Assembly (NCBI RefSeq): GCF_023913515.1
Contig: NZ_CP099391.1
Coordinates: forward strand, 1 to 64,000
DNA length: 64,000 nucleotides
From: Natronococcus sp. CG52
Lineage (GTDB): Archaea; Halobacteriota; Halobacteria; Halobacteriales; Natrialbaceae
Direction of reading: 5' to 3'
Under the pieces are notes generated by a model that had not been told where the DNA came from, ran no database searches, and worked only from the letters and a program-made list of their open reading frames with translations. The position numbers and the translations under genes are program-made. Each line of letters starts with the position of its first letter. Within the stretch, counting starts at the first letter, position 1. Positions 52,341-56,805 of this stretch are shown here, in pieces.

Positions 52341-53684
52341 TCAGTCATAGGCACCCGCCCGCTCGAGTTCGCCGCGCTTCCGGAGCACCGCCGGCGTCCG
52401 ACAGATCCCCGGCGCGCCGGTCACCTGCGGCACGGTGCAGTTGTTACAGCTCTCGCAGAGCGCGCGAACCCTTGCGTCCGGCCGCTCGTCTCCGCGGCCG
52501 GTCTCGAGCAACCGCGCCCCGAGTCGCGGCTCGGCGTAGAACGGCCGCGCCATGCCGACCGCGTCGCAAGCGGCGGACTCCGCCCCGCTCCCTAGGAGTC
52601 GATCCATCTCCTCGCGTTCGCGAATCCCGCCCTCGGCGAGGACGGGGACCGACACCCGCTCGCGAACGCGGCGACAGAACTCCTCGTTCCAGGCCGGCTC
52701 GAAGTCGTACTGCAGCGACTGGACGCGATTGGCCAGGGAAACGAGTCGCTTTCGCGTCGTCCCGCCGAAGGCCGCGTCGTACCCCTCCTGGAGGACCTCG
52801 TTCTCCCACGCCCGATCCGGGTACTCGCCGCGGGTGATACTCATGTCCCAGACCACCGACGTCTGAACGGGAACGACCGCGTCGTAGCCGATTCTTTCGA
52901 GCCGTCGGGCGATTTCGACGCCGTCGCCGAGCGACAGCTTTCGCCGGACGAGCGGCGCCGGCGGGGCGGGCGTCTCCGCGGGCACCTTCGTGATCACGGG
53001 GAGGCCGCCGGCCCGGTCGTGGATCTCGTCGTGAACGACCGCGAGAAAGCGGAGGCGCGCCTCGGGAGACCCCCCGAATTCGTCGTCGCGCCGGTTGTAG
53101 AACGGCGACAGGAACTGCTGAACGATTCCCATGTTCGCACCCGCGAGGTGGATGCCGTCGTATCCTGCTTCGGCGGCGTAACCCGCCGCGCGACCGAAGT
53201 CGGCCGCGAGTTCGTACACCTCCTCGGCCGTGAGGACGCGGGGGTCGTACGAGAGGAAGCCCGCTCGATCGAGCAACTGCAACTGCCAGGGCGGCTCCGA
53301 GACCGCGAGCTGCTCGAGTCCTGAATTCTCGCGTCGGTACTCGGCGTGCCAGGTCTCCATGCTCCGCAGCCCGCCGTGCTCGAGTTGCAGGAAGATCCGC
53401 CCGCCGTGGTCGTGGATCCGCCCGGTGAGTTCCGAGAGCCGCGAGACGAAGCCGGGGTCGTGGACGCGAGTCATCCCCGGCGCCGCACAACCGCCCTCGC
53501 CGCGGACGATGGTCGCACCCTGACAGACGAGACCGACGCCCGACGCGGCGGCCGGTTCGAGATCCTGGATCAGCGTCTCGACGGCGTCGGGCCCGTTGCC
53601 GGCGCACTCGAGCAGCGGCGCGCGGTAGAGCCGGTTCGGGATCTCGACGCCGCCGATCTCGAGCGGATCCTCCAGGGTAGCCAT
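52341..53684 (-). CDS. NADH:flavin oxidoreductase of the old yellow enzyme / 2,4-dienoyl-CoA reductase type
   Basis: 447 residues: TIM barrel with 'EIGGVEIPNRLYRAPLLECA', 'IFLQLEHGGLRSMETW', 'YDGIHLAGANMGIVQQFLSP' and 'VLAEGGIREREEMDRLLGSG'. The C-terminal 'CESCNNCTVPQVTGAPGICR' motif binds a 4Fe-4S cluster. Only the OYE half is present, without the C-terminal FAD/NAD domain of bacterial dienoyl-CoA reductase. Substrate unknown. It runs in the same direction as the alcohol dehydrogenase 57 nt upstream. Confidence 0.9.
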   Translation of the reverse strand: MATLEDPLEIGGVEIPNRLYRAPLLECAGNGPDAVETLIQDLEPAAASGVGLVCQGATIVRGEGGCAAPGMTRVHDPGFVSRLSELTGRIHDHGGRIFLQLEHGGLRSMETWHAEYRRENSGLEQLAVSEPPWQLQLLDRAGFLSYDPRVLTAEEVYELAADFGRAAGYAAEAGYDGIHLAGANMGIVQQFLSPFYNRRDDEFGGSPEARLRFLAVVHDEIHDRAGGLPVITKVPAETPAPPAPLVRRKLSLGDGVEIARRLERIGYDAVVPVQTSVVWDMSITRGEYPDRAWENEVLQEGYDAAFGGTTRKRLVSLANRVQSLQYDFEPAWNEEFCRRVRERVSVPVLAEGGIREREEMDRLLGSGAESAACDAVGMARPFYAEPRLGARLLETGRGDERPDARVRALCESCNNCTVPQVTGAPGICRTPAVLRKRGELERAGAYD

Positions 53685-53741
53685 GCGCGATAGGTTCGGG
53701 CGGCCGATACAAGAGCGTACGGCCGATCCTCGATTCCCGCC

Positions 53742-54785
53742 TCAGGGAGGTGTGATGACCGCTCTGCCCTCGATCTCGCGGTGCTCGAGTCGCTCGGCGA
53801 CCGTGTTGATATCGTCGAGGTCGTAGCGTTCGGTTCGTAACTCTACGTCGCCGCGGTCGACGAGCGCGACGAGTTCCTGTAACTCGGCGTACTTGCCGAC
53901 CAGCGTTCCTCTGAAGGCGAACTCTCCGTTGACCAGCGCCTGGGAGGGTTCGTGGACGTGGCCGCCGTAGCCGATCACGTGGTGGTCGCCACCCGCGGCA
54001 ACCATTTCGGGTGCAGTGCCGGTCGTCTCGTCTGCCCCCACGAAGTCGAGGACCTGCTGGGCGCCCTCGTCGTCGGTCAGATCCGTGACGGCGCTCGCGA
54101 GGTCCTCGTCGGCCGAGTTGATCGTGCGGCGGGCGCCGAGGTCCTCGGCCAACTCGAGAGCTTCGTCCTTGATGTCGGCGGCGACGATGTCGGCGGCGCT
54201 CATCGCGTCGAGACACTGCAGTCCGATGTGGCCGAGTCCGCCGACGCCGATGACGACGCAGGTGTCGCCGGGATTCAGCTCGCGGACGGCCTTTTTTGCG
54301 GCGTGGTAGGCCGTGATTCCAGCGTCGGCGTGAGGGGCGATCTCCGTCGGATCGGCTCCCTCGGGAAGCGGGATGACCGCACGCTCGTTGGTCTGGAGGT
54401 ACTCGGCGAAGCCGCCGTCGGTGGTGAGTCCGTTGAACGCGCTGTTCTCGCAGTACATGTCCTCGCCGAGCCGGCAGGGTCGGCAAGTGCCGCAGGTCTG
54501 GACGGGGTGGCAGATCACCGGGTCGCCCTCCTCGACCAGCGTCACTTCGTCGCCGGTCTCCGCGACGATGCCTGCGTTCTCGTGGCCCAGCGTCATCGGC
54601 AGGTCCTGTGGCGCGTACTCCTCCCACATTCCCTCGATGATGTGGTTGTCCGTCTGGCACCAGCCGGCGCCCTCGACTTCGACCAGGACCTGATCCGAGC
54701 GTTCGAGGTCCGGCCGATCGACGTCGTCGATCTCGAGGGCGTCGCTCATCTCGTCCGTATACTCGTGGAGGCGGGCTGCTTGCAT
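53742..54785 (-). CDS. Zinc-dependent NAD(P) alcohol dehydrogenase
   Basis: 347 residues of the MDR family. Catalytic zinc: 'GAGWCQTDNHIIEG' and 'LGHENAGIVAETGDEVTL'; structural zinc: 'CGTCRPCRLGEDMYC' with four cysteines; Rossmann loop GVGGLGHIG. The family oxidises secondary or primary alcohols. It faces the amidohydrolase/DUF59 pair divergently, as in bacterial propane and acetone/isopropanol gene groups. Confidence 0.93.
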   Translation of the reverse strand: MQAARLHEYTDEMSDALEIDDVDRPDLERSDQVLVEVEGAGWCQTDNHIIEGMWEEYAPQDLPMTLGHENAGIVAETGDEVTLVEEGDPVICHPVQTCGTCRPCRLGEDMYCENSAFNGLTTDGGFAEYLQTNERAVIPLPEGADPTEIAPHADAGITAYHAAKKAVRELNPGDTCVVIGVGGLGHIGLQCLDAMSAADIVAADIKDEALELAEDLGARRTINSADEDLASAVTDLTDDEGAQQVLDFVGADETTGTAPEMVAAGGDHHVIGYGGHVHEPSQALVNGEFAFRGTLVGKYAELQELVALVDRGDVELRTERYDLDDINTVAERLEHREIEGRAVITPP

Positions 54786-54970
54786 GGTAACACACCACAG
54801 TTCTCCGTACTCACAGAAAACATTCGCCCAAACTGCCGCCGGACGTAAAATTCAGCCTTCAGGGTAGGTGCTCCCTCCCTGAACGTGCGGAACCCAGACG
54901 TATTCGTTCGGGTAATTCTGCTTCCGCTTAAAAAGAAATAATGGCCATTGTTACCTATTCTCATAATGCG
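54786..54970. promoter_or_regulatory. Divergent promoter between alcohol dehydrogenase and amidohydrolase
   Basis: Plus-strand TATA-like CTTAAAAAGAAATA at 54927-54940 predicts a start near 54958 and favours ATG 54971 over ATG 54941 for the amidohydrolase. No clear operator palindrome. Confidence 0.45.
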
Positions 54971-56035
54971 ATGTACCAGCAAGACGACGAATCGGTCTTC
55001 GTCATCGACGCGCACGTCCACCTGTGGGACGCGACCGAGGAGAACATCAAACACGATGGAGGGGAAGAGTTCATCCAGTGTTTCTACGACTACCACACGA
55101 CGTTCACGCCGGAGGACCTCCAGTGGGGAATGGACGAGTACCGGAAGTACGGCACCGAGCGGATGGTCGAGGATCTGTTCGAGAACGCCGCCGCGGACAT
55201 GGCGATTTTCCAGCCCACGTACCTCACGGACTTCTACGAGGACGGGTTCAACACGACTCACCAGAACGCCGAACTCGCGACCGAGTATCCCGAGCGGTTC
55301 GTCCTCAACGGCTCGTTCGACCCCCGGGACGGCGAGGAAGGAATCGAGCACCTCGAGGAACTGCACGAGACGTACGACATCCAGGGTGTGAAACTCTACA
55401 CGGCCGAGTGGCGCGGCGAGTCGAAGGGGTGGCGCCTCGACGCCGAGGAGTCCTTCGAGTTCTTGGAGCGGTGCGAGGAGCTCGGCGTCGAGAACATCCA
55501 CGTCCACAAGGGGCCGACGATCCGGCCGCTGAACCGCGACGCCTTCGACGTGAAGGACGTCGACGACGCGGCCTCTTCGTTCTCCGGGCTCAACTTCATC
55601 GTCGAACACGTCGGGCTTCCCCGATTGGACGACTTCTGCTGGATCGCCGGCCAGGAGCCGAACGTTTACGGCGGGCTCGCGGTCGCCGCGCCGTTCGCCC
55701 AGAACCGGCCCGGCAAGTTCTCGGAGATCATGTCGGAACTGCTCTGGTGGCTCGGCGAGGACCGTCTACTGTTCGGCTCGGACTACGCGCTCTGGAATCC
55801 CGACTGGCTCGTCGAGGAAGTCGTGGAAGCGGAACTGACCCAGGAACACCGCGCGGAGTACGGCGTCGAGTGGGATCTCGAGACGAAGAAGAAGGTGATG
55901 GGGGAGAACGCGGCTAAGCTGTACGACATCGACATCGAGGAGAAGAAAGCTCAGTTCCGCGAGGACGAGATCAGCCGGGAGTTCGGCCTCGAGGATCACT
56001 ACGCGAGCGAGGAGCCCGCGGCTGCGGACGACTGA
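54971..56035 (+). CDS. Amidohydrolase-2 family metal hydrolase
   Basis: 354 residues from ATG 54971 (ATG 54941 adds ten residues). 'VFVIDAHVHLWDATEENIKH' has the HxH metal site, 'FIVEHVGLPRLDDFCWIAG' a second histidine, and 'RLLFGSDYALWNPDWLVEEV' the catalytic aspartate. ACMSD-like amidohydrolases act as decarboxylases or hydratases. In actinobacterial propane monooxygenase operons such a gene lies next to a DUF59 gene, as here (stop and start share a base). Confidence 0.9.
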   Translation: MYQQDDESVFVIDAHVHLWDATEENIKHDGGEEFIQCFYDYHTTFTPEDLQWGMDEYRKYGTERMVEDLFENAAADMAIFQPTYLTDFYEDGFNTTHQNAELATEYPERFVLNGSFDPRDGEEGIEHLEELHETYDIQGVKLYTAEWRGESKGWRLDAEESFEFLERCEELGVENIHVHKGPTIRPLNRDAFDVKDVDDAASSFSGLNFIVEHVGLPRLDDFCWIAGQEPNVYGGLAVAAPFAQNRPGKFSEIMSELLWWLGEDRLLFGSDYALWNPDWLVEEVVEAELTQEHRAEYGVEWDLETKKKVMGENAAKLYDIDIEEKKAQFREDEISREFGLEDHYASEEPAAADD

Positions 56036-56805
56036 TGACCGAACGCACTCCCGACGGCCCTTCCCGCGAGGCCGTCCGCGACCGCCTGGATCGCGTCACC
56101 GATCCGGAACTCGACCGCTCGATCGTCGAACTCGAGTACGTCGACGCGATCGAGATCGACGGCGGCCGCGTTACCGTTCACGTCACGCTGCCGACGGCGT
56201 GGTGTTCCCCGGCGTTCGCCTGGATGATGGCGGCCGACGCGCGCGAGGAGGTCGAGGGGCTCTCCGGCGTCGCCGAGGGACGCGTCTATCTCCGCGAGCA
56301 CATGCACGAAGTCGAGATCAACCGTGGGATGAACGCGGGGCTGCCCTTCGAGGACGCGTTTCCCGACGCCGACGACGCCGTCGACGCGGTGCGGGCGGAA
56401 CTCGACCGGAAGGCCAGAACCGCCCGTCAGTACGACGCCGTCGAGACTCTTCTCGAGGCGGGGCTCGATCCCGCGACGATCGTCTCGCTCCGTCCGCGAG
56501 ATCTCGAGCGCACCGACCGGGACGACCGCGCGACGATCTACCTCGCGGATCGAGCGGTCGCCGTCTCCGTCCCGGCGGAGCCGATCGACGACTACCTCGA
56601 GAAGGCCCGCGAAACGGGACTCGTCGAGACGTCGGCTGACCCGCTGTTCCTGACGCCCGAGGGCGAGCCGATCGACTCCTCGGAGTTCGAGCTGGTCCAC
56701 CGTCGGGGACGGCTGGCGAAGGTCAACATGTCGAGCCAGGGCGGCATCTGCGACGGGTTGCGGGAGTCGAGGGAGCGACGGCTCGGCGACGCGGCGTCCG
56801 GCTGA
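56035..56805 (+). CDS. DUF59 (MIP18-like) metal-sulfur cluster assembly protein
   Basis: 256 residues. The N-terminal DUF59 domain has 'VTDPELDRSIVELEYVDAIE' and the Cys-containing 'VTLPTAWCSPAFAWMMAADA'. A C-terminal extension of about 120 residues with 'HRRGRLAKVNMSSQGGICDG' has a further cysteine. Family members mature iron or iron-sulfur enzymes. Translation is coupled to the amidohydrolase. Confidence 0.87.
   Translation: MTERTPDGPSREAVRDRLDRVTDPELDRSIVELEYVDAIEIDGGRVTVHVTLPTAWCSPAFAWMMAADAREEVEGLSGVAEGRVYLREHMHEVEINRGMNAGLPFEDAFPDADDAVDAVRAELDRKARTARQYDAVETLLEAGLDPATIVSLRPRDLERTDRDDRATIYLADRAVAVSVPAEPIDDYLEKARETGLVETSADPLFLTPEGEPIDSSEFELVHRRGRLAKVNMSSQGGICDGLRESRERRLGDAASG

Follow-up and report, generated by a model that had tools for sequence, protein, structure and literature searches.

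The window analyzed here, a 64,000-nucleotide stretch of DNA from Natronococcus sp. CG52, contains a group of three genes, encoding a zinc alcohol dehydrogenase (ADH), an amidohydrolase-2 family protein (AMH), and a two-domain DUF59 protein. The grouping is real and conserved, and it is best described as an ADH/AMH/DUF59 module that is independent of diiron monooxygenases (SDIMOs), a variant of a known gene set that has a putative reaction. The original prediction had placed an old-yellow-enzyme (OYE) gene, a zinc ADH gene, an amidohydrolase-2 gene, and a DUF59 gene at positions 52341 to 56805, and the open reading frames and Pfam matches agree with it (Table 1). The proposed coupling of the last two genes is also borne out by a TGATG overlap, in which the last base of the AMH stop codon (56033 to 56035) is the first base of the DUF59 start codon. 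The ADH and OYE genes point away from the AMH-DUF59 pair, and the two sets, being divergent, are therefore not one operon. Aligned AMH orthologues mostly begin at the second ATG, at 54971, and translation probably starts there.

Table 1. Features of the ADH/AMH/DUF59 locus, numbered from the first nucleotide of the window
Feature	Positions	Strand	Length and annotation
OYE-family oxidoreductase	52341-53684	-	447 aa; Pfam Oxidored_FMN PF00724, 4.6e-38
Zn-dependent medium-chain ADH	53742-54785	-	347 aa; Pfam ADH_N/ADH_zinc_N
Divergent intergenic region ADH/AMH	54786-54940		155 bp; promoters of ADH and AMH presumed from position
AMH, amidohydrolase-2 family	54941-56035	+	364 aa as called; Pfam Amidohydro_2 PF04909, 3.3e-45
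Two-domain DUF59 protein	56035-56805	+	256 aa; Pfam FeS_assembly_P (DUF59) PF01883, 9.2e-17

The distribution of the genes was determined in a sample of 292 Halobacteria genomes. AMH orthologues (66 to 87% identity) were present in 87 of them, about 30%, and were set apart by a sharp gap from the other PF04909 proteins, which showed 32% identity or less. In a phylum-wide sample, the orthologues were confined to the order to which the window belongs. The long DUF59 protein was found in the identical set of 87 genomes (Fisher p about 1e-76, with kinship ignored), and its gene adjoined the AMH gene in 62 of the 62 haloarchaeal loci examined, such that the pairing is obligate. Every one of the 87 AMH genomes also carries an ADH orthologue; at 57 of the 62 loci, in several families, it is located within about 3 kb of AMH. 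The order and strand of the three genes varied between haloarchaeal groups. The shared set of genomes, the adjacency of DUF59, and the proximity of ADH together indicate that the grouping is not due to chance. The ADH was additionally found in 72 genomes without the pair, so its role is wider than the module. In the ADH tree, proteins from pair-bearing and pair-less genomes were intermixed. Relatives without AMH-DUF59 retain the flanking ADH and the synteny, which indicates that the two genes of the pair were gained or lost together, next to an ADH that is retained more widely.

The OYE gene had been proposed to join this group, and that proposal did not hold up. Genes for OYE, a rhodanese, Cgi121, and Hel308 lie beside the module solely in the family of the window, as a syntenic block, and the OYE-ADH-Cgi121-Hel308 arrangement persists in relatives lacking AMH-DUF59 (L214, L216, and L219). 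On those grounds, OYE was rejected as a core member. The OYE protein itself carries a C-terminal cysteine cluster, CESCNNC...C, as in FadH-type Fe-S flavoenzymes, minus the FAD/NAD domains. At 12 loci (L039, L041, L044, L049, L050, L053, L054, L072, L073, L143, L145, and L147), a pyruvate dehydrogenase E1-alpha-like gene is near the module ADH, in several of them on the same strand and directly downstream. This gene was set aside as a module part and taken as within-family synteny; a functional link may remain.

The three kinds of gene had been noted as characteristic of actinobacterial monooxygenase operons, which is right, and they are found in proteobacterial operons too. Searches of annotated plasmids by tblastn yielded AMH orthologues with 48 to 59% identity from Caballeronia, Aminobacter, Paracoccus, Ponticoccus, Gemmobacter, Bradyrhizobium, and Rhodococcus, with the usual gene order being SDIMO alpha, reductase, beta, MmoB, AMH, DUF59, and GroEL. 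The ADH is 45 to 48% identical to the ADHs of bacterial SDIMO operons, and the bacterial and haloarchaeal DUF59 proteins align over their full lengths, C-terminal domain included. The similarity to the bacterial genes is thus established as orthology and is not merely at the family level. The window locus resembles the prmABCD and mimABCD operons of Rhodococcus, Gordonia, Mycolicibacterium, Caballeronia, Bradyrhizobium, and others in having an orthologous AMH, two-domain DUF59, and Zn-ADH, with the pair adjacent. It differs from them in lacking the monooxygenase subunits, a bacterial GroEL, and a sigma-54 regulator, and its ADH gene is divergent, whereas that of the operons is cotranscribed.

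The locus has neither a monooxygenase nor a bacterial GroEL, as originally described, and the absence of the monooxygenase extends to the whole genome. A search for a PrmA/MimA-like diiron hydroxylase with PF02332 (diiron hydroxylase alpha/beta) gave no match anywhere in the genome of the window, and the positive controls W01 and G292 were matched. The same domain was absent from all 60 pair-bearing haloarchaeal genomes tested, that of the window included, again with positive controls matched. The Cpn60_TCP1 profile did not detect a chaperonin near the locus; it gave four strong matches in the genome, all away from the locus, and these are taken to be archaeal thermosomes. One of those four chaperonin genes has, as a divergently oriented neighbor, a further Amidohydro_2 gene that is unrelated to AMH (G000:C1:718912-719610 and 719969-721432). 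SDIMOs were found in three of the 292 haloarchaea, at L234 (G064), L235 (G217), and L236 (G095), and all three genomes lack AMH-DUF59. Judged by eye from the sequence, these SDIMOs are toluene-4-monooxygenase-like, with alpha, beta, MmoB-like, and Rieske ferredoxin-like genes. Their alpha subunit and that of the prm type share about 25% identity.

The bacterial set comprised 65 loci, 53 of them from a scan of genome contigs. AMH and DUF59 were adjacent in 64, the exception being a locus that stops at a contig edge. An SDIMO was present within 47 of the loci and lacking in 18. Nine of the latter were in genomes without PF02332, and for seven an SDIMO was located at another site in the genome or record; the other two were searched as plasmids only. 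The nine PF02332-free genomes include Alteribacillus, Paenibacillus validus, Streptosporangium subroseum, and Salinisphaera japonica, and several others of the nine are MAGs whose completeness is not known. Comparing neighborhoods of the pair upheld a link to hydroxylases in most bacterial loci and gave none in the haloarchaeal genomes tested. Co-inheritance of the pair in 87 of 292 haloarchaea, SDIMO-free in every one tested, establishes its independence from the SDIMO and argues that AMH and DUF59 are not primarily monooxygenase helpers. In a FastTree tree of 148 AMH orthologues, the haloarchaea grouped as a single clade with a support of 0.87. No SDIMO adjoined the pair in the deepest bacterial branches or in the Bacilli; in Thermomicrobium, one of the deep branches, an SDIMO is located elsewhere on the same replicon. 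This weakly rooted tree suggests a single entry into the haloarchaea and an SDIMO association that may be secondary.

The properties of the individual proteins were then considered. By fold and sequence, the ADH can be assigned to the Zn-MDR enzymes and appears secondary-ADH-like, scoring 329 bits against PDB entry 1h2b, an alcohol dehydrogenase, and about 200 bits against the Rhodococcus ruber secondary ADH. The N-terminal DUF59/MIP18 domain of the DUF59 protein has D23-P24-E25 and C57 in 31 of 31 members, and the AF2 model (pLDDT 93) gave Foldseek matches to DUF59 structures and CIAO2B. In its DPE motif, conserved cysteine, and predicted fold, the protein resembles SufT, PaaD, and CIAO2B; unlike them, it has an additional conserved C-terminal domain of about 130 amino acids, in which C239 and R246 are invariant and for which no Pfam match was obtained in the 31 members. 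Foldseek gave weak matches of this domain to Cre/XerA (E values of 0.01 to 0.2), and a tyrosine recombinase identity, without Pfam support in the 31 members, was rejected. The haloarchaeal PaaD family NF041868 scored 30.9 on the DUF59 protein versus a cutoff of 180.

The AMH model is a TIM barrel (AF2, pLDDT 88). The nearest solved folds in Foldseek were an uncharacterized TIM barrel, gamma-resorcylate decarboxylase, LigW, the LigJ hydratase, and ACMSD, with the SfbO oxygenase further down the list, and searches of PDB sequences by phmmer and profile returned one spurious match and no usable relative. Across the 148 orthologues, H25, K151, H189, K190, H223, and D281 do not vary among the sequences covering them, and H27 is kept in 143 of 147, with alanine in the other 4. 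The HxH, H, H, D metal and catalytic set of PF04909 mononuclear metalloenzymes is complete in AMH (H25, H27, H189, H223, and D281), its strand positions having been assigned from AF2 secondary structure and not by superposition. We take this set to be the mononuclear metal site of PF04909 decarboxylases, hydratases, and hydrolases. AMH shares those residues and the TIM barrel (Foldseek E values of about 1e-7 to 1e-8) with the nonhydrolytic PF04909 enzymes gamma-resorcylate decarboxylase, LigW, ACMSD, and LigJ. It differs from them in being only 12 to 18% identical, in having an obligate DUF59 partner, and in its extra invariant or nearly invariant residues K190, R228, D231, C233, E239, and W285. 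Near the metal site, H187 is replaced by asparagine in 13 haloarchaeal orthologues and E222 by asparagine in 13, possibly marking a covarying subtype.

On the basis of these observations, we propose, with about an even chance of being correct, that AMH and DUF59 are a metal enzyme and its dedicated metallation partner, which with the ADH make up an SDIMO-independent module for small alcohols or hydroxycarbonyls. AMH would be a TIM-barrel enzyme with a mononuclear metal site, of the PF04909 decarboxylase, hydratase, or hydrolase kind, and the MIP18-type DUF59 protein would load or assemble it as an obligate partner. With the Zn-ADH, the pair would form a mobile, inducible module for a small alcohol, most likely of two to four carbons, and the carbonyl compound derived from it. 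Bacteria would usually have the module joined to an SDIMO, which supplies the alcohol or ketone, whereas haloarchaea, Bacilli, and some other groups would run it without one, on substrates from other sources. From the perfect co-inheritance, the overlapping frames, the SDIMO independence, and the complete metal site, we infer that AMH is the client of DUF59. A counterpoint is that the proteins served by relatives of DUF59 are usually of the Fe-S type, and AMH has no clear Fe-S motif.

Clues to the substrate come from expression, regulators, and neighboring genes. In Actinomycetospora on 2-HIBA, AMH makes up 3.2% and Adh1 6.1% of the proteome (PMC7176365). That abundance is consistent with AMH being an enzyme, but the GroEL-like MimG reaches the same level (PMC7176365). 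Regulators near the module are of catabolic types, namely, sigma-54 activators in bacteria and IclR in Thermomicrobium and some haloarchaea. The haloarchaeal glycolaldehyde reductase NF053832 is present in 43 genomes; in 9 of these its gene is no more than 2.1 kb from the module ADH, and in a tenth it is flanked by AMH and ADH, these 10 haloarchaeal genomes representing about three lineages. AMH is present in 23 of the 43 genomes with the reductase versus 64 of the 249 without it (Fisher p 5e-4, with kinship ignored). The reductase gene adjoins the module ADH or AMH-DUF59 at L237, L238, L057, L063, and L098; at L237 and L238 it is codirectional with ADH, and the pair is not alongside. The Halobacterium enzyme yields ethylene glycol, the onward fate of which is stated to be unclear (PMC9700705). 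In bacteria, a GldA-type gene is near the trio in Salinisphaera, and Paenibacillus validus has a row of genes for AMH, DUF59, DJ-1, a sugar-diacid regulator, GlcD, and a GlcF-like protein. Coming from few lineages, the C2 clues are leads and not proof.

A more specific route, from 2-propanol and acetone or via acetol and methylglyoxal, with the ketone reaching haloarchaea from outside, is doubtful. The likeness of the ADH to secondary ADHs is consistent with it, as are the induction of the Actinomycetospora Mim cluster on acetone as well as 2-HIBA (PMC7176365) and the DJ-1/PfpI or glyoxalase genes adjoining the pair in Bacilli and Rhizobium. However, with no SDIMO, there is no known acetone hydroxylation in these haloarchaea, and their neighboring genes indicate glycolaldehyde or ethylene glycol equally. 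The original prediction raised the idea that the module matures another iron enzyme, and we consider it unlikely that AMH-DUF59 is a diiron monooxygenase maturation factor with such a client in haloarchaea. The SDIMO linkage of most bacterial loci, the translational coupling, and the role of DUF59 proteins as iron or Fe-S maturation factors would fit such a function, but the 60 haloarchaeal and 9 bacterial pair-bearing genomes lack an SDIMO, the pair is missing from the three haloarchaea whose SDIMO is toluene-monooxygenase-like, and no candidate client, iron enzyme or other, recurs beside it. The perfect AMH/DUF59 co-inheritance and the retained catalytic residues of AMH, with its own metal site, likewise disfavor this function. 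We found no functional study of the AMH or DUF59 proteins of SDIMO operons, nor of MSMEG_1975/1976. Active MimABCD is reported to require coexpressed MimG (PMC7570240), and SmoABCD, from a different SDIMO group, is reported to be functional with aldDH, alcDH, and GroEL only (PMC11057499); the accessible portions of these two sources do not name AMH or DUF59 as required.

It is very improbable that AMH stands in for the SDIMO as a dinuclear oxygenase that itself activates O2 (an ARO, the class of AibH2, PtmU3, and SfbO). AMH and the AROs do share a Pfam family, superfamily, and fold, SfbO is among the structural matches, and AROs hydroxylate small aliphatic substrates (PMC7782822, PMC10811679). 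However, the dinuclear ligands of AibH2 are Asp25, His27, His211, Glu265, Asp337, and His340 (PMC7782822), and the corresponding D-x-H, H, E, D-x-x-H set is absent from the 148 AMH orthologues. In AMH, the D-x-H, the sixth-strand Glu, and the D-x-x-H are replaced by H25-x-H27, H223, and D281-Y-A-L, and a Rieske ferredoxin or reductase is not a recurrent neighbor. An ARO identity was rejected on this ligand set.

The proposal of a metal enzyme with its own metallation partner bears on both the bacterial operons and haloarchaeal metabolism. For the amidohydrolase and DUF59 genes of propane and acetone monooxygenase operons, the haloarchaeal loci provide SDIMO-free systems in which to learn their role. 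The occurrence of the trio as a stand-alone set suggests that it is an independent route for small alcohols and not simply an accessory, and the haloarchaeal alcohol or ketone pathway, not yet described, that was originally envisaged is plausible, with its reaction putative. The module is also a starting point for learning how small alcohols, or glycolaldehyde and ethylene glycol, might be processed in haloarchaea.
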